A stretch of 64,000 nucleotides of DNA from NCBI RefSeq assembly GCF_003259375.1, contig NZ_QLLN01000001.1:28635-92634 (forward strand), given 5' to 3'. The number at the start of each line of letters is the position of its first letter. Position 1 is the stretch's first letter. Made by a program: the position numbers and the translations under genes. This stretch comes from Arenibacter echinorum (GTDB lineage Bacteria; Bacteroidota; Bacteroidia; Flavobacteriales; Flavobacteriaceae). Positions 32,378 through 40,567 of this stretch are shown piece by piece. A model generated the notes under the pieces. It searched no databases. It saw nothing but the letters and a program-made list of their open reading frames with translations, and had not been told where the DNA came from.

Positions 32378-33166
32378 ATGTTTAACAGCGAAAGAACAAT
32401 TAAGGGATGCAAATGGCAATGGCTGTGGTTAGTGCTGCTTACCATCGTATTTGTTGGGTGTCAGAATAATAACGATAAAAAAATTATAATAGCCACTGCG
32501 GCCAATATTGAGTCTGCCATGCTGGCTTTGACAAATGCCTATGCCCACAAAACTGGAGTGAAATTCGAGTTAATTGTTGGGTCATCGGGCAAGTTGACAG
32601 CACAGATTATGGAAGGTGCACCTTATGATATTTTTGTTGCCGCAAATATGAAATATCCTGAAGCTGTTTATGCAGGGGGAAAAGCTAAGAATAAGCCTAA
32701 AGTCTATGCCAAAGGAAAATTGGTACTATGGTCAATGATTGAAAATACCCCCATTTCAATTGCTGCATTGTCCGATCCCGTTATAGAACACATTGCTTTG
32801 GCAAATCCCAAAACTGCCCCGTATGGCGTTGCCGCCCAAGAAGTTTTGCAACACTACGGCCTGAACGAAATCTTAGGGTCTAAATTAGTCTTCGGGGAAA
32901 GTATTGGCCAAACAGATCAATTCATTATTTCCCGAGCAGCGCAAATTGGTTTTACGGCCTTATCAACAGTTTTATCCCCAGAAATGAAAGGGAAAGGAAG
33001 TTGGATTCTTATAAATCCATCGCTATACTCTAATATTAGTCAAGGTGTGGTACTGGTAAATCGGAAAGAAGAGACTAACCAAGGTTCACAGGGCTTTTAT
33101 GACTTTCTTTTTTCAGTTGAAGCCAAGGAGATATTAAAAGAATTTGGATATTTGGTAGATGAATAG
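32378..33166 (+). CDS. modA: Molybdate ABC transporter substrate-binding lipoprotein
   Basis: 262-aa periplasmic binding protein with a lipoprotein signal (WLWLVLLTIVFVGC). The mature start IIIATAANIESAMLALTNAY and the VGSSGKLTAQIMEGAPYDIFVAAN segment are the anion-binding ModA hallmarks. The ANPKTAPYGVAAQEVL and VFGESIGQTDQFI blocks follow. It captures molybdate or tungstate for ModBC. First gene of modA-mop-modB-modC, overlapping the next by 8 bp. The signal is preceded by about 14 polar residues, so a slightly later start cannot be excluded. Confidence 0.94.
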   Translation: MFNSERTIKGCKWQWLWLVLLTIVFVGCQNNNDKKIIIATAANIESAMLALTNAYAHKTGVKFELIVGSSGKLTAQIMEGAPYDIFVAANMKYPEAVYAGGKAKNKPKVYAKGKLVLWSMIENTPISIAALSDPVIEHIALANPKTAPYGVAAQEVLQHYGLNEILGSKLVFGESIGQTDQFIISRAAQIGFTALSTVLSPEMKGKGSWILINPSLYSNISQGVVLVNRKEETNQGSQGFYDFLFSVEAKEILKEFGYLVDE

Positions 33167-33560
33167 TTTTCCGGGTCATATTACAGAAGTTAAAACCAAT
33201 GGAACCATGTCCATTGTAGGTGTTGAGGTAGAAAGTGGTGAGGAATTAATGTCCGTGGTTATAGATAGCCCTGATACTGCCCCTTATTTGAAAAAGGGCA
33301 ACAAGGTGAATGTCTTGTTTAAGGAAATGGAGGTTGCAGTCACAACCCAAAAGGAATTGGATATTAGTATTGAGAATAGGATTGCTGGAAGCATTAGCAG
33401 TATGGAAGAGGGAGTTTTATTGAGTAGATTGGTTTTGGAAACAAAAATGGGGGAGGTCATCGCTATTATAAGTACTAAGAGTTTAAGGCAGATGGGATTG
33501 GTTGAAAAGATGAACGTAATGATTATGGTTAAATTGAACGAGATAATACTTGCGCCATAA
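33159..33560 (+). CDS. Molbindin/TOBE-domain protein
   Basis: 133-aa protein made of two TOBE/Mop-like repeats (about 1-62 and 67-133). The second contains ISIENRIAGSISSMEEG and VIAIISTKSLRQMGL, close to the SARNxLxG...ITxxSxxxLGL pattern of molybdopterin-binding (Mop) domains. Likely a cytoplasmic molybdate-binding protein. It overlaps modA at its start and modB at its stop (TAATG), so it is part of the mod operon. The first repeat is diverged. Confidence 0.82.
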   Translation: MNSFPGHITEVKTNGTMSIVGVEVESGEELMSVVIDSPDTAPYLKKGNKVNVLFKEMEVAVTTQKELDISIENRIAGSISSMEEGVLLSRLVLETKMGEVIAIISTKSLRQMGLVEKMNVMIMVKLNEIILAP

Positions 33561-34231
33561 TGGATTGGCAACCTTTAGTGCTTACCTTTAAACTTGCGGT
33601 GGTTACTACGGCGATATTGTTTGTGGTTTCTATTCCCATAGCCCGTTGGCTGTCAAGTACCAAATCCAAAATAAGGCCTGTCTTGGAAACCTTGGTGAGT
33701 ATGCCATTGGTGCTTCCGCCTACCGTTTTGGGTTTTTATATGCTGGTGGTCTTTAGCCCGGAAAATGCCTTTGGAAATTGGTTAAATGAATGGCTGGGGA
33801 TCAAGCTTATATTTTCGTTTGGGGGTTTGGTAGTGGCATCGGTCATTTATAGCTTGCCGTTTATGGTGCAACCCATTCAGGCAGGACTTTCCTCCTTGCC
33901 TTCCACATTAAAAGAAGCTTCCTATACTATGGGGAAATCAAAAATGACAACACTGCTAAAAGTTTTGTTGCCCAATATTAAACCTTCCCTTCTAACAGGC
34001 ATTGTACTTTCCTTTGCCCATACAGTTGGGGAGTTTGGCGTAGTGCTTATGATTGGGGGGAATATGCCCGGAAAGACCAAAGTGGCCTCTATTGCCATAT
34101 ATGATGAAGTGGAAGCGCTTAATTATGTTGCTGCCAATAGCTATTCATTGATTTTGTTTACAATAACTTTTTTTATTCTGCTACTGGTTTATCTAACCAA
34201 TGGAGGATATTTTAAACGCTACTCCCAATGA
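33560..34231 (+). CDS. modB: Molybdate ABC transporter permease
   Basis: 223-aa inner-membrane permease with about five helices. The N-terminal LVLTFKLAVVTTAILFVVSIPIA, then LVSMPLVLPPTVLGFYML, and the EAA loop (LKEASYTMGKSKMTTLLKVLLPNIKPSLLTG) with FAHTVGEFGVVLMIGGN are characteristic of ModB/CysTW-type permeases. Starts within the stop of the Mop gene and overlaps modC by 4 bp. Normal length. Confidence 0.95.
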   Translation: MDWQPLVLTFKLAVVTTAILFVVSIPIARWLSSTKSKIRPVLETLVSMPLVLPPTVLGFYMLVVFSPENAFGNWLNEWLGIKLIFSFGGLVVASVIYSLPFMVQPIQAGLSSLPSTLKEASYTMGKSKMTTLLKVLLPNIKPSLLTGIVLSFAHTVGEFGVVLMIGGNMPGKTKVASIAIYDEVEALNYVAANSYSLILFTITFFILLLVYLTNGGYFKRYSQ

Positions 34232-35100
34232 TAAGTTTAAACCTAAAAAAGACACTTAAATCTGCGGGAGGAAAAATAGACCTGAATTTGCAATTGACCA
34301 TCGAAAAGGGGCAATTTGTTACTTTATTTGGGGAATCCGGTGCAGGGAAAACATCTACTTTAAGAATGCTTAGTGGTTTGTTAAGGCCAGATAGTGGAAC
34401 CATAAAAGTGGGTGAAACAATATGGTTTGACAGTCACAAAAATATTGATCTTAAACCCCAACAGCGCAAAGTGGGATACGTATTTCAGGATTATGCCCTC
34501 TTTCCCAACATGAGCGTTCGTCAAAATTTGGAATACGCCCTTCAGAAAAATCAGGATAGAACCATAATAGGGGAGTTGTTGGAATTTGCCGAGCTTGGCG
34601 AATTGGAACAAAGAAAACCAGAAACCCTATCCGGGGGGCAAAAACAACGAGTGGCATTGGTCAGGGCATTGGTCCAACGGCCTGAAATATTAATATTGGA
34701 CGAACCTTTATCGGCCTTGGATTTAAAGATGCGGATAAAGTTACAGGAATATCTTTTGCAGGTTCATAAGAAATATAATCTGACCACTATATTGGTAAGT
34801 CATGATATTGGGGAAATAGTTAAACTATCGGATAGAGTCTATGAGCTTCAAAATGGTAGCGTAATCAAAAAAGGTACTACTACCGATTTTTTTGGACTAA
34901 ACAAGACCAGTGCTAAATTTAGATTCTCGGGAGAGGTGTTAAAGATACAAAGGGAAGATGTTTTATATGTAATTTCCGTACTGATCGGTAACGATATTAT
35001 CAAGGTGGTTGCGGATCGGACCGAGGCCAATAATTTTAAGATAGGAGATCAGGTTTTAGTAGCTTCAAAAGCCTTTAATCCTATAATTCAAAAAATATAG
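34228..35100 (+). CDS. modC: Molybdate ABC transporter ATP-binding protein
   Basis: 290-aa ATPase. Walker A GESGAGKTST, Q-loop region GYVFQDYALFPNMSV, signature LSGGQKQRV, Walker B ILILDEPLSALD and the switch His in LVSHD are all present. The C-terminal tail (about 225-290) is a single reduced TOBE-like region, shorter than the E. coli protein. The separate Mop gene two positions upstream may compensate. Last gene of the mod operon. It meets gldA tail to tail, only 33 bp apart, without a clear terminator. Confidence 0.95.
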   Translation: MISLNLKKTLKSAGGKIDLNLQLTIEKGQFVTLFGESGAGKTSTLRMLSGLLRPDSGTIKVGETIWFDSHKNIDLKPQQRKVGYVFQDYALFPNMSVRQNLEYALQKNQDRTIIGELLEFAELGELEQRKPETLSGGQKQRVALVRALVQRPEILILDEPLSALDLKMRIKLQEYLLQVHKKYNLTTILVSHDIGEIVKLSDRVYELQNGSVIKKGTTTDFFGLNKTSAKFRFSGEVLKIQREDVLYVISVLIGNDIIKVVADRTEANNFKIGDQVLVASKAFNPIIQKI

Positions 35101-36027: not shown

Positions 36028-36284
36028 GCGTTTACTTTTTTTATCAAAAATAATGCAAATTAGTGAAACCTAGTTTTAATTATCTTCTGGATAGAATGTT
36101 GACCGCGAATGGCGGATTGTTGGTGTCGATAAAATCATTTGTTCTTCGTAATTCGTAAAAATTGACAGTTAAAGGGTTTTAATCGGAATTTTTTTTGCTT
36201 TAAACTGATTTAAATAAAAAAATGTGGGCGTAAATGCTGATATATAAATTTAATTATTAATTTAGCCGGAGTTTTATAAGAAAA
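36028..36284. other. Spacer between gldA and the pheA leader
   Basis: AT-rich divergent spacer, part of the 468-bp gene-free interval before pheA. It should contain the promoter of the leader/pheA operon; the best near-match is TTAATTTAG at about 36258, not a full TAnnTTTG box. No other structure is supported. Confidence 0.4.
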
Positions 36285-36356
36285 ATGACAAAGCAATATT
36301 TCTGGAACGGTTTTAGTTTTTACTTCTTTTTTAAGGGAGGTATGGGACTGTTCTAG
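36285..36356 (+). CDS. Phe-rich leader peptide of the pheA operon
   Basis: 23-codon ORF (ATG 36285, TAG 36354). Seven of 23 residues are Phe, two Tyr and one Trp, with FSFYFFF at codons 10-16. It is followed 25 bp later by an intrinsic terminator and then pheA, the arrangement of a classical ribosome-stalling attenuator. Ribosomes held at the Phe codons for lack of charged tRNA-Phe would favour an antiterminator (see the next entries); ribosomes reaching the stop would favour termination. Too short for normal gene calling. Seen in sequence; mechanism inferred. Confidence 0.8.
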   Translation: MTKQYFWNGFSFYFFFKGGMGLF

Positions 36357-36391
36357 CATATTTTAAAATATATATAGATTAAAGTCCTGTG
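36341..36391 (+). promoter_or_regulatory. Possible antiterminator of the pheA attenuator
   Basis: 36341-36349 (TATGGGACT, within the last leader codons) can pair over nine positions, three of them G-U, with 36383-36391 (AGTCCTGTG). The latter includes most of the terminator's left arm. The two structures exclude one another, and a ribosome at the leader stop would cover the upstream arm. Confidence 0.55.
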
Positions 36392-36411
36392 AAAACCAGG
36401 ACTTTTTTTTT
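36381..36411 (+). terminator. Attenuator terminator upstream of pheA
   Basis: Stem AAAGTCCTG (36381-36389) with CAGGACTTT (36397-36405), 7-nt loop, and a T run of nine from 36403 to 36411. It lies between the leader ORF and pheA, with no other gene to terminate. Confidence 0.88.
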
Positions 36412-36495
36412 GGATATAAGTTTCGAAAAGGAAGTGGAGTTACAAAAGAGTTTAGCGGTAAGTCTTTGACAGGCCGGAAGATAATATAAAAAAGG

Positions 36496-37326
36496 GTGAA
36501 ATTAAAAATTGCAATACAAGGTATTAAGGGTTCTAACCATCATCAAGTGGCAAAGGATTATTTTGGCGATGATGTTACTTTCGTGGAATGTTCATCCTTC
36601 GATATTTTGGTAGACCATTTGCTAAATAAAACAGCGGATAAGGGGGTAATGGCCATAGAGAATTCCATCGCTGGGTCCATTATACCCAACTATGCCCTGG
36701 TCTTTCATAAAAACCTGCATATTATAGGCGAACAGTATTTAAATATACATCATAACCTGATGGCTTTAAAAGGTCAGACCATAGATGATATAAAGGAAGT
36801 CCGCTCCCATCCCATGGCACTGCTGCAGTGTAATGAATTTTTTAAAAATTATAAACACATTAAACTGGTGGAAGATGTGGATACTGCCGAGACAGCAAAA
36901 AGAATTCAGGAAAATCAATTAAAGGGAATAGCGGCTATTGCACCAAAAGTTGCTGCCGAATTGTATGATTTGGAAATTATACACTCGGAAATACAGACCA
37001 TAAAAGACAATTCCACTAGGTTTATAATTGTCAAGACACAAAACAAGGCGCTGCCTCAGAATGAAATAAACAAAGCCTCTGTACGTTTTATAACGGACCA
37101 TAAACGGGGAAGTCTCGCTGCTATATTGAATGTGATGAGCGATTGTAACTTGAACCTTACCAAGATTCAGTCTTTACCGGTAATAGAGATGCCTTGGAAA
37201 TATTCATTTTTTGTGGATGTAACTTTTGAAAAGTACAAACATTTTGAAAAGGCAAAGGCTTTATTGGAAATTATGGCCGAAGAATTTAAAGTTTTGGGAG
37301 AATATAAAAATGCCAGAATAGTATGA
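36496..37326 (+). CDS. pheA: Prephenate dehydratase
   Basis: 276-aa monofunctional dehydratase making phenylpyruvate from prephenate. The catalytic domain starts KIAIQGIKGSNHHQVAKDYF, includes the VMAIENSIAGSIIPNY block, SHPMALLQC and the DNSTRFIIV motif with the essential Thr-Arg-Phe. A C-terminal ACT domain (GSLAAILNVMSDCNLNLTKIQSLPV) should bind Phe for feedback control. The start is GTG at 36496. It is the first structural gene behind the Phe leader and overlaps the aminotransferase by 4 bp. Confidence 0.95.
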   Translation: MKLKIAIQGIKGSNHHQVAKDYFGDDVTFVECSSFDILVDHLLNKTADKGVMAIENSIAGSIIPNYALVFHKNLHIIGEQYLNIHHNLMALKGQTIDDIKEVRSHPMALLQCNEFFKNYKHIKLVEDVDTAETAKRIQENQLKGIAAIAPKVAAELYDLEIIHSEIQTIKDNSTRFIIVKTQNKALPQNEINKASVRFITDHKRGSLAAILNVMSDCNLNLTKIQSLPVIEMPWKYSFFVDVTFEKYKHFEKAKALLEIMAEEFKVLGEYKNARIV

Positions 37327-38465
37327 TTGCTGCAAATAGATTAAATACAGTTGAAGAATACTACTTCTCTAAAAAGCTTAGGGAAGTTAGGGGTTTAATG
37401 GCAGAAGGAAGGCCTATTATAAATATGGGTATCGGAAGTCCTGATTTGGAGCCGTCCATTGGGGTACAAGACGCTATTAAAGATGCGCTGAGCCATGATG
37501 GGGCGCATCAATATCAGAGTTATCAGGGCTTGCCCGAGCTAAGGCAGGCATTTGCATCATTTTATAAAAATAAATTTGGTGTAACTGTGGACCCCCAAAC
37601 AGAAGTACTACCATTAATGGGGTCTAAAGAGGGGATTATGCATATTAGTCTGGCTTTTTTAAATCCCGGAGATGAGGTGTTGATTCCAAACCCTGGGTAC
37701 CCTACATATACCTCGGTAACCAATTTGGTCGGGGCAGTGCCACGGTATTATGATTTGACCGGAAAAAATGGTTGGTTTCCAGATTTGGAAGAACTTAGTA
37801 AGCAAGACCTTGCAAAAGTGAAGTTGATGTGGACCAGTTATCCACATATGCCAACCGGTGCTACGGCGAATAGAGAGCAGTTAAAAAAGCTGGTTGCTTT
37901 TGCAAGGGAACATGATATTTTATTGGTAAACGATAATCCATATAGCTTTGTTCTAAATCAAGATCCAATAAGTATTTTGGAGATGGAGGGAGCCATGAAT
38001 GTGGCCTTGGAATTAAATTCGTTGAGCAAGACCTTTAATATGGCAGGTTGGCGAGTTGGGATGGTTTTGGGAAACAGCGAACATATCAACGCCGTTTTAA
38101 AGGTAAAGAGCAATATGGATTCGGGTATGTTTTATGGCATACAAAAGGGAGCCATCGCTGCTTTAAATAGTAGCGAATCATGGTTTAGTGAATTAAATAA
38201 GGTGTATCATGAGCGTCGGGAGTTAATGTTTGTGCTGGCAGATAAGCTAAAATGTTCCTATGATAAAAATTCTGTAGGAATGTTCGTTTGGGCGAAATTG
38301 CCTGCTGGGGTTTCGTCCTCTGAAAAGTTTATTGATGAGGTGCTCTATGAGAAGAATATTTTTATTACTCCCGGAACTATTTTTGGTTCAAACGGAGAGG
38401 GGTATATTCGTTTTTCCTTGTGTGTTACGGCAGATAAGATAAAAGAAGCGATCAATAGGTTTTGA
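37323..38465 (+). CDS. Class I/II aminotransferase (aromatic)
   Basis: 380-aa PLP-dependent fold-type I aminotransferase. Motifs: NMGIGSPDLEPS, HQYQSYQGLPELRQAF, NPGYPTYTS, LVNDNPYSF and the PLP-Lys block SLSKTFNMAGWRVG. Its place between pheA and tyrA implies the last step to Phe/Tyr, amination of phenylpyruvate and hydroxyphenylpyruvate. The family also includes LL-diaminopimelate and Asp aminotransferases, so specificity rests on context. It overlaps pheA (ATGA). Confidence 0.9.
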   Translation: MIAANRLNTVEEYYFSKKLREVRGLMAEGRPIINMGIGSPDLEPSIGVQDAIKDALSHDGAHQYQSYQGLPELRQAFASFYKNKFGVTVDPQTEVLPLMGSKEGIMHISLAFLNPGDEVLIPNPGYPTYTSVTNLVGAVPRYYDLTGKNGWFPDLEELSKQDLAKVKLMWTSYPHMPTGATANREQLKKLVAFAREHDILLVNDNPYSFVLNQDPISILEMEGAMNVALELNSLSKTFNMAGWRVGMVLGNSEHINAVLKVKSNMDSGMFYGIQKGAIAALNSSESWFSELNKVYHERRELMFVLADKLKCSYDKNSVGMFVWAKLPAGVSSSEKFIDEVLYEKNIFITPGTIFGSNGEGYIRFSLCVTADKIKEAINRF

Positions 38466-38614: not shown

Positions 38615-39475
38615 ATGAATGTATTTGTAATCGGTATTGGATTAATCGGAGGGTCTCTGGCCAAGGATATTAAACGCAATAGGCCAGATTCCAAAATTTA
38701 TGGTATAGATGTCAATGAGGGACATCTGGATGAGGCTTTGTCATTATCTTTGATCGATGAAAAGGCGGATTATAGTCAATTGCACCAGGCCGACTTCGTA
38801 ATAGTTGGGATTCCAGTGGATGTTATGGTGCAGGAACTGCCAAAAATATTGGATGCCATTGATGACGATGCCGTAGTTATTGACGCGGGATCTACAAAGT
38901 CCCTCATCTGCAAGGTTGTGGAAAATCATCCCAAGAGAAGAAATTTCCTGGCTTGCCACCCTATTGCGGGAACAGAGTTTTCAGGTCCCTCTGCGGCTAT
39001 AGAAGGTTTGTTTATGGGAAAGACCAATATCATTTGTGAAATAGAAAAAACCGCCTTTAAATTGCAGGAAAAAGCTTTGGAACTTTTTCAGCAATTGGGG
39101 ATGCGTATACGCTATATGAATCCAGAGGCACATGATAAGCATATTGCCTACGTTTCACATTTGTCACATATAAGTTCCTTTATGCTGGGAAAGACTGTAA
39201 TAGAGAAAGAAAGGAATGAACGTGATATTTTTGATATGGCGGGCAGTGGTTTCGAAAGCACTGTGCGATTGGCAAAGAGTTCGCCGGCCATGTGGACCCC
39301 AATTTTTAGGCAAAACAAGGAAAATGTAGTTGAAACCTTGGGAGAATATATACAAAATTTGAAAGAGTTTAAAGCAATGTTGATAGCCGATGATTATGAA
39401 GGCATCTATAATGAAATGAATAGTACAAATAAAATAAAGGAAATATTAAACGGAATACCACTTAACAAAAAATAG
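38615..39475 (+). CDS. tyrA: Prephenate dehydrogenase
   Basis: 286-aa NAD(P)-dependent dehydrogenase giving 4-hydroxyphenylpyruvate for tyrosine. N-terminal Rossmann motif GIGLIGGSLAKD, the DAGSTKS block, HPIAGTEFSGP and the helical C-terminal domain (HDKHIAYVSHLSHISSFML) match TyrA. No ACT domain, so feedback must be exerted elsewhere. It is separated from the aminotransferase by 150 bp, longer than other gaps in the operon, and is followed 9 bp later by DAHP synthase. Confidence 0.95.
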   Translation: MNVFVIGIGLIGGSLAKDIKRNRPDSKIYGIDVNEGHLDEALSLSLIDEKADYSQLHQADFVIVGIPVDVMVQELPKILDAIDDDAVVIDAGSTKSLICKVVENHPKRRNFLACHPIAGTEFSGPSAAIEGLFMGKTNIICEIEKTAFKLQEKALELFQQLGMRIRYMNPEAHDKHIAYVSHLSHISSFMLGKTVIEKERNERDIFDMAGSGFESTVRLAKSSPAMWTPIFRQNKENVVETLGEYIQNLKEFKAMLIADDYEGIYNEMNSTNKIKEILNGIPLNKK

Positions 39476-39484
39476 AGTATAGAA

Positions 39485-40567
39485 ATGGAAAATTTAAAAG
39501 AAATGAGATCATGGTTGGACGATATGAAATTGGACCATCCGTTAGTAATTGCCGGGCCTTGTAGTGCGGAAACAGAGGAGCAAGTGCTTCGAATAGCCAA
39601 TGAGTTAAAAGATACCGATGTAAATTACTTTCGTGCTGGTATCTGGAAACCAAGAACACGTCCTGGAATGTTTGAAGGGGTAGGAGCTTTAGGTTTAAAG
39701 TGGTTGCAAAAAGTTAAGGCTGAAACCGGAATGAAAACTTGTACAGAGGTAGCCAATGCTGCCCATGTGAAGTTGGCATTGGAGCATGACGTTGATTTAT
39801 TGTGGATTGGTGCAAGATCAACCGTTAGTCCATTTATTATGCAAGAAATAGCGGATGCTCTTGAGGGAACAGATAAAATTGTTTTGGTGAAGAACCCCGT
39901 AAATCCTGATTTGGCTTTATGGCTTGGTGGAATTGAAAGATTATATACGGCCGGTGTTAAAAATTTAGGTGCTATACATAGAGGTTTCTCTACTTATGAA
40001 AAAACAAAATATAGAAATATCCCAGAATGGCAATTAGCTATTGAGTTTCAAAATAAATTTCCTGATTTGCCATTAATCAATGATCCTTCGCACATCACAG
40101 GAAACAGGGAAATGATTTTTGATGTTTCGCAGACTGCCTTGGATCTTAATTTTGATGGTCTTATGATTGAGACACATTACGATCCGGATAACGCATGGAG
40201 TGATGCCGCACAACAGGTAACTCCTGCCAAATTGATTCAGATTATGAGAGATTTGAAAATTAGAAAAGAGTCCGATTCGGAAGCGGAGTACACCAGTCAA
40301 CTTAGTAATCTAAGAGCTCAAATAGATGTTCTTGATAGCCAGTTGATAGAAATGCTTGGTAAAAGAATGAAGATCTCTGATGGGATAGGGTCATTAAAGA
40401 AACAAAAAAATGTTGCTGTTTTGCAATCCAATAGATGGAATCAGATTTTAGGTGCCATGATTCTGGAAGGGGAAGCAAAGGGATTAAGTGAGGAATTTGT
40501 TTTAAAGATGTTTAAGGCAATTCACCAAGAATCCATAAATCACCAAGAGAAGATAATCAACTCATAA
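39485..40567 (+). CDS. aroG: DAHP synthase / chorismate mutase fusion
   Basis: 360-aa bifunctional enzyme. Residues 1-265 are a 3-deoxy-7-phosphoheptulonate synthase of the KDO8P-synthase-like type (IAGPCSAETEEQ, FRAGIWKPRTRPGMFEG, LINDPSHITGNRE). Residues 270-360 are an AroQ chorismate mutase (LRAQIDVLDSQLIEMLGKRMKI). It opens and then re-enters the aromatic pathway, feeding prephenate to pheA and tyrA in the same operon. This fusion order is the usual one in Bacteroidota. A strong terminator follows. Confidence 0.95.
   Translation: MENLKEMRSWLDDMKLDHPLVIAGPCSAETEEQVLRIANELKDTDVNYFRAGIWKPRTRPGMFEGVGALGLKWLQKVKAETGMKTCTEVANAAHVKLALEHDVDLLWIGARSTVSPFIMQEIADALEGTDKIVLVKNPVNPDLALWLGGIERLYTAGVKNLGAIHRGFSTYEKTKYRNIPEWQLAIEFQNKFPDLPLINDPSHITGNREMIFDVSQTALDLNFDGLMIETHYDPDNAWSDAAQQVTPAKLIQIMRDLKIRKESDSEAEYTSQLSNLRAQIDVLDSQLIEMLGKRMKISDGIGSLKKQKNVAVLQSNRWNQILGAMILEGEAKGLSEEFVLKMFKAIHQESINHQEKIINS

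Follow-up and report, generated by a model that had tools for sequence, protein, structure and literature searches.

The locus under study lies on the forward strand of the window, i.e., the whole 64-kb stretch of DNA that was analysed. A promoter-like box, a short open reading frame rich in aromatic codons and a set of helices with shared arms precede an operon of four genes:

36258..36265, + strand: promoter-like -7 box TAATTTAG, a variant of TAnnTTTG, starting 27 nt 5' of the leader ATG
36285..36356, + strand: leader peptide ORF, MTKQYFWNGFSFYFFFKGGMGLF, with stop codon TAG at 36354-36356
36302..36315, + strand: region 1, the 5' arm of the protector (1:2) helix, CTGGAACGGTTTTA
36312..36332, + strand: control codons F10 S11 F12 Y13 F14 F15 F16
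36343..36356, + strand: region 2, the shared arm, TGGGACTGTTCTAG; all 14 nt pair with region 1, or the first 7 nt with region 3
36381..36411, + strand: intrinsic terminator, 9-bp stem 36381-36389 x 36397-36405, T run 36403-36411
36383..36389, + strand: region 3, AGTCCTG, pairing with 36343-36349 (antiterminator) or with region 4 (terminator)
36496..37326, + strand: pheA, prephenate dehydratase, GTG start as listed, PF00800 (PDT), 4.7e-57
37323..38465, + strand: class I/II aminotransferase, PF00155 (Aminotran_1_2)
38615..39475, + strand: tyrA, prephenate dehydrogenase, PF02153 and PF20463 (PDH_N/PDH_C)
39485..40567, + strand: DAHP synthase-chorismate mutase fusion, PF00793 (DAHP_synth_1) and PF01817 (CM_2)

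The Pfam matches confirm the gene order pheA-aminotransferase-tyrA-DAHPS/CM that a first-pass annotation had given for the region 3' of the terminator. Among 80 named records (isolates and MAGs from Arenibacter, Maribacter, Flagellimonas, Cellulophaga, Tenacibaculum and others), the order pheA-AT-tyrA-aroF was found in 78; the remaining two hold pheA-AT-tyrA and pheA-AT only, within the sequence stretch available. The named PheA closest to that of the window is from Arenibacter algicola (96% identical). On the 5' side, the ORFs at 32378-35100 (+) resemble modA, modB and modC, which we take to be a molybdate transporter set.

Starting from the ATG at 36285, the leader ORF runs over 23 codons, including seven Phe, two Tyr and one Trp, just as first annotated. 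It is the sole match on either strand of the 64-kb window to a strict detector, which requires an ATG ORF 12-60 aa long in which F, Y or W occupy 7 or more of 11 residues, a terminator at most 100 nt away and a location in the last 300 nt upstream of pheA. The conservation of the window's Trp codon is ambiguous, because this codon also forms part of arm 1 of the protector helix.

The terminator stem consists of nine pairs, four of them G-C, with a 7-nt loop and a run of nine T. The alternative helix (36341-36349 x 36383-36391) likewise has nine pairs, of which three are G-U. Both structures had been recognized in the first-pass annotation, as a 9-bp stem-loop with nine T and as a competing 9-pair helix; what it overlooked is the third, protector helix (36302-36315 x 36343-36356), in which 14 pairs join codons 6-11 to the end of the leader ORF, stop codon included. 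The helix energies amount to -13.9 kcal/mol for 1:2, -8.2 kcal/mol for 2:3 and -11.0 kcal/mol for 3:4, and the modest value for the antiterminator counts against an attenuator. The leader RNA folds with -34.7 kcal/mol (z = -4.03 versus dinucleotide shuffles), and its minimum-energy fold contains 1:2 together with 3:4. As region 2 and region 3 have two partners each, the leader has a full three-state design.

The promoter-like box was likewise missing from the elements first listed for this region. A TANNTTWG site starting at -31 to -17 of the leader ATG was found in 126 of 142 leaders, compared to 4.1 in shuffles (sd 2.2, max 10 of 50), the W of this motif having been introduced post hoc, after inspection of the sequences. 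The exact TAnnTTTG box showed no enrichment (26 of 143 leaders versus a mean of 15 and a maximum of 26 in shuffles). The -7 box may be part of the promoter of the leader, with a putative transcription start near 36271.

To follow the element across the Flavobacteriaceae, we collected PheA matches from 130 of 149 family genomes (one per genus) and from 18 of 18 genomes of the genus; with the window's own genome present in both sets, the pool amounts to 147 pheA upstream regions. In 143 of them, the pick yielded a short aromatic ORF with a terminator behind it. No aromatic minimum was imposed on this pick, and the ORFs obtained were nevertheless aromatic-rich. The strict detector recognized 140 of the 147 real upstream regions, compared to none in ten dinucleotide-shuffled sets of 147, and all 80 named records, the species of which may overlap with the 147. 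A covariance model added two leaders, one situated 0.9 kb 5' of pheA and one cut by the contig start, which raises the count to 145 of 147. In the former (L207, genome G128), the ORF between leader and pheA resembles a REP-associated transposase; this presumed insertion would explain the distance. For two of the 147 genomes with pheA (L113 and L130), neither the ORF pick nor the covariance model yielded a leader.

The terminator stem covaries: in 56 diverse leaders, 94.2% of the cells are paired and 44 cells are double-changed, a level seen in 0 of 500 shuffles, with double changes in seven of the nine stem pairs. For the other two helices a register-free swap test was employed, in which each leader's own arms are compared with arms exchanged between genomes. 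Pairing of 2:3 scored 17.01 for own arms versus 12.72 for swapped arms, the former value being reached by 0 of 200 swaps, and pairing of 1:2 scored 18.48 versus 14.19 (0 of 100 swaps; n = 141 leaders). Five control segment pairs of the same relatedness showed no excess pairing (z values of 1.2, -1.2, -3.7, 0.6 and -0.8). The leader's own terminator arm pairs better than the mean of the others in 126 of 142 leaders and does not in 16. Matched changes of region 2 and region 3 can be read directly from the sequences (GGGACT/AGTCCC, GAGAC/GTCTC, AGGACT/AGTCCT, CCGGGTT/AACCCGG, AAGGCT/AGCCTT). On a plain MAFFT alignment with fixed columns, 58.1% of the 2:3 cells are paired versus 56.7% after shuffling, with 34 of 500 shuffles as high; region 2 is apparently misregistered by one base between clades in this alignment, and a slide of +1 gives 69.9%. 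Since the fixed-column count gave no clear signal, the claim of 2:3 covariation rests on the swap test. Two of the tests proposed along with the first-pass annotation, conservation of leader ORF and stems across the family and covariation of the stems, thus both turned out in its favor, with 143 of 147 genomes for the former and with terminator, antiterminator and the third helix (1:2) all covarying for the latter.

The spacing between codons and helices is similarly constrained. Of the 142 leaders with the helix, 140 have region 2 beginning 7-14 nt past the last aromatic codon and two at 5 nt, the commonest offset being 11 nt (67 of 142), although region 2 was sought freely up to the terminator with no offset imposed. 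The offset of the stop codon from the last aromatic codon varies from +6 to +33. With region 2 steady and the stop drifting, the spacing appears tied to the control codons and not to the stop. Given the size of the ribosome footprint, the region 2 offset is, as expected, where the front of a ribosome stalled on the control codons would lie.

The locus thus has an ORF with codons for the pathway's products 5' of the cognate operon, an intrinsic terminator between this ORF and the first gene, an antiterminator that uses ORF-proximal sequence and excludes the terminator, as judged by the swap tests, and a protector helix for default termination. The latter is weak in three Arenibacter members (L038, L043 and L044; scores of 11.4-12 versus 26 in the window). 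Moreover, its spacing is such that a ribosome stalled on the codons would free region 2 and one at the stop would cover it. We therefore consider it very probable, at roughly 93%, that a classical ribosome-mediated transcription attenuator of the trp/his/phe type controls the pheA-aminotransferase-tyrA-DAHPS/CM operon. A ribosome-stalling attenuator had been the initial interpretation as well, and the conserved ORF, the terminator and the competing, covarying helices support it. According to this model, RNA polymerase would start at the putative promoter and transcribe the leader. With charged tRNA-Phe and tRNA-Tyr in ample supply, the ribosome would reach the stop codon and cover region 2, allowing the terminator 3:4 to form. 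Upon scarcity, it would stall on F-S-F-Y-F-F-F and mask region 1, leaving region 2 free just ahead; free region 2 would then capture region 3, and transcription would proceed into the operon. If no ribosome is present, 1:2 and 3:4 would form together and transcription would end by default.

A terminated leader RNA or peptide could also act in trans, besides or instead of attenuation in cis, the trp leader peptide from Sinorhizobium meliloti, described in PMC7298713, being an example. The strong conservation of the peptide within the genus would agree with such a role. Family-wide, however, the amino acid sequence changes and what persists is the codon class, the spacing and the helices, which fits selection on a cis-acting RNA, and the conserved non-aromatic residues of the window's peptide (WNGF, MGLF) coincide with the arms of the 1:2 helix. 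We thus regard a trans role as improbable and retain attenuation in cis.

To assess which amino acids the leader senses, we analyzed its codons. Phe and Tyr both occur in 143 of 143 leaders, and Trp occurs in 102 of them as well. The last seven core positions, 1001 codons in total, comprise F 608, Y 246, N 68, W 51, S 15 and L 1, whereby the core is by definition the densest aromatic stretch and the aromatic total is biased up and Leu biased down; the shuffle control of the strict detector indicates that such aromatic stretches do not arise by chance. Along the core Phe and Tyr interchange, with Tyr at position -3 in 105 of 143 leaders, while Leu, likewise one base away from the Phe codons, occurs just once in 1001. 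This pattern also bears on a TnaC-like mechanism, in which the nascent peptide or a free amino acid instead of uncharged tRNA would stall the ribosome. A conserved hydrophobic nascent chain is what such an arrest peptide would show, but Phe, Tyr and Trp replace one another and the core varies in length, unlike in residue-specific arrest. In addition, a biosynthetic operon should not be induced by excess, which is an argument only. Arrest of this kind is therefore very unlikely. Still less credible is a T-box, riboswitch or protein-binding leader independent of translation: it would share the structured 5' element with a terminator, but the conserved unit here is an in-frame codon run. T-box and riboswitch were rejected, as no Rfam family reached its gathering score in the window, and a permissive Rfam scan of 36180-36500 gave eight sub-threshold matches with no T-box or riboswitch among them. 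A constitutive or partial terminator behind a chance ORF, conceivable in an AT-rich region where T-rich DNA yields Phe codons, is hardly worth considering in view of the empty shuffled sets, the near absence of Leu from the core and the covariation of the competing helices.

Leaders of a similar kind were also seen in front of other operons of the family. A leader with a W run before trpE and one with a His run before hisG were each found in 29 of 30 scanned family loci, counts for which no shuffle control was run; the loci were taken from 39 (TrpE) and 33 (HisG) matching genomes, with 41 genomes searched each. Judged by these sequences, trp and his in this family are likewise served by leader peptides, and their codons match the operon product. 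With a separate leader for trpE and with Phe and Tyr universal, the pheA leader is best read as a sensor of Phe and Tyr, and Trp is a possible further input. The idea of a Phe sensor over all aromatic flux, put forward initially, is supported with regard to a leader in front of the operon and does not hold for Phe alone, since all 143 leaders contain Tyr too.

In the window's own genome, the trp leader MKNMVSNTWWWSNLRKTS, with the run NTWWW and a terminator, lies before trpE (L218, contig C10, reverse complement from about 1283), and a -7-like box TATATTTG stands directly 5' of its ATG. The his leader MKNNRTHHHHFFTCNQAS, with THHHHFF and a terminator, lies before hisG (L149 1186-1242, contig C3). 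Two genomes without a PheA match (L302, G042 and L303, G089) carry Tyr-rich leaders, MKNLNNTYYYYPILTRRIGQ and MKTNRIYTIYMYTFYHRWRAR, which together with their terminators abut a PF00351 gene. A Tyr leader before an aromatic amino acid hydroxylase is possibly a Tyr-codon attenuator acting on Phe-to-Tyr conversion. As a family-wide trait, a Tyr leader of phenylalanine hydroxylase was rejected, as it appeared in two of 30 scanned PF00351 loci, which came from 63 genomes with a match out of 100; for a few of the 30, the start of the gene could not be located. In another family genome without a PheA match (L209, G033), the short ORF MTNNNTWWSNSKFYLKR 5' of a DAHP synthase/CM gene combines Trp, Phe and Tyr codons.

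Across the phylum, the covariance model matched 76 of 296 genomes at E <= 0.01. As a specific detector at this threshold it was rejected: it also hit 14 of 19 family genomes that had no PheA match, only two of these 14 below 1e-6, and at seven of eight inspected loci with E > 1e-3 (L211-L217, except L216) no aromatic leader was present at the model match. Owing to this lack of specificity, presence of a leader was judged by ORF, terminator and neighboring gene. The phylum search for PheA yielded matches in 128 of 148 genomes. In other orders of the same class, an aromatic ORF with terminator was found in all 16 PheA-bearing genomes, as counted with a looser detector without shuffle control. 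The leader lies within about 350 nt 5' of pheA in 14 of them; in the two with a late pheA, it lies at the head of a longer operon, before a DAHP-synthase-like gene. At L388 and L389 (f8 genomes), a similar leader heads an operon that ends in pheA, behind genes that by their look are DAHP-synthase-like, aroB-like and aroA-like. Within the same order, the two PheA-bearing genomes from another family, whose PheA is divergent (31-32% identity), showed no leader. Outside the class, a non-random 13 of 95 genomes were inspected. Three of these have the leader, with a PheA 43-47% identical, and in the other ten, with a PheA of 32-39%, none was found within the 1.2-1.4 kb fetched. Among the genomes inspected, the leader appears to track one PheA subtype, via descent or operon transfer.

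Beyond attenuation as such, we are inclined to favor, though with clearly less assurance, a broader proposal: the element would be a joint tRNA sensor for Phe and Tyr, often also Trp, inherited class-wide with one pheA subtype and setting the flux of the whole aromatic pathway via one mixed-codon leader, and it would belong to a standard attenuator set (phe, trp, his) in bacteria that initiate without Shine-Dalgarno sequences. If so, the mixed F/Y runs would make a shortage of either amino acid sufficient for a response of the operon, in effect a codon-encoded OR gate. Shine-Dalgarno sequences are absent in Flavobacterium psychrophilum, as stated in passages of PMC9723704, and the pheA leader lends itself to studying attenuation in their absence.

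The same work (PMC9723704, 2021) contains passages on a structured 5' transcribed element before pheA in F. psychrophilum, which is also found in other Flavobacteriaceae genera and has no Rfam match, and on strong clues in its transcriptome for leader-peptide attenuation 5' of amino-acid operons. Given the family-wide conservation, this element is probably the same as the leader of the window. Such attenuators were initially said to be less described in the phylum than in Proteobacteria, a fair view, since our literature search gave this one explicit flavobacterial pheA 5' element. According to the relevant portion of Naville and Gautheret 2010 (PMC2965389), the only leader-peptide systems known outside Proteobacteria and Actinobacteria were that of ermC and a Firmicutes case of the authors' own; the Lopatovskaya survey of 2010 may differ. 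The main text of PMC2965389, which surveys premature terminators, has no occurrence of bacteroid-, flavobacteri- or pheA. Parts of PMC7366714 report that sORFs of Bacteroides thetaiotaomicron resemble leader peptides, passages of PMC8305728 on the his genes of the superphylum mention attenuation for enterobacteria only, and the pertinent sections of PMC4833913, PMC1262725 and PMC2864571 do not describe a pheA leader of this kind.

The mechanism itself is textbook; of interest are the control run that mixes Phe with Tyr codons and the occurrence of the leader across the class. How Bacteroidota regulate the synthesis of amino acids seems to have received little study, and the covariation evidence with its controls suggests that classical attenuation governs the aromatic operon throughout the family and in all PheA-bearing genomes inspected in the other orders of the class. 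The exact coordinates and codons are supplied here for mutational tests, and the leader would provide a natural example of a two-amino-acid sensor.

In E. coli, pheL is a Phe-only leader and the Tyr genes are governed by TyrR. The window leader shares with pheL of E. coli and Salmonella (RF01859, Phe_leader) the short Phe-rich ORF, the logic of protector, antiterminator and terminator and the position before pheA. In contrast to pheL, its control run combines Phe and Tyr codons, frequently along with Trp, and the operon behind it includes tyrA and DAHPS/CM as well. The RF01859 model aligns to the window leader over its full length, yet below threshold, and membership was rejected at 16.6 bits (E = 2.7) versus a gathering score of 55. 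Compared with the F. psychrophilum element, the peptide sequence, helices, covariation and spacing of the pheA leader are additions to the main-text passages of PMC9723704, the supplements of which may hold some of them. With the enterobacterial trp and his attenuators, the leader has in common the three-state design, a codon run and default termination without translation (for trp, see passages of PMC1183508), whereas codons and genes differ; the sequence relation was compared via Rfam only. Finally, the trpE (WWW) and hisG (His-run) leaders of the same family share with it the short ORF, the terminator and a run of cognate codons, and differ from it in the codons by which they would sense.
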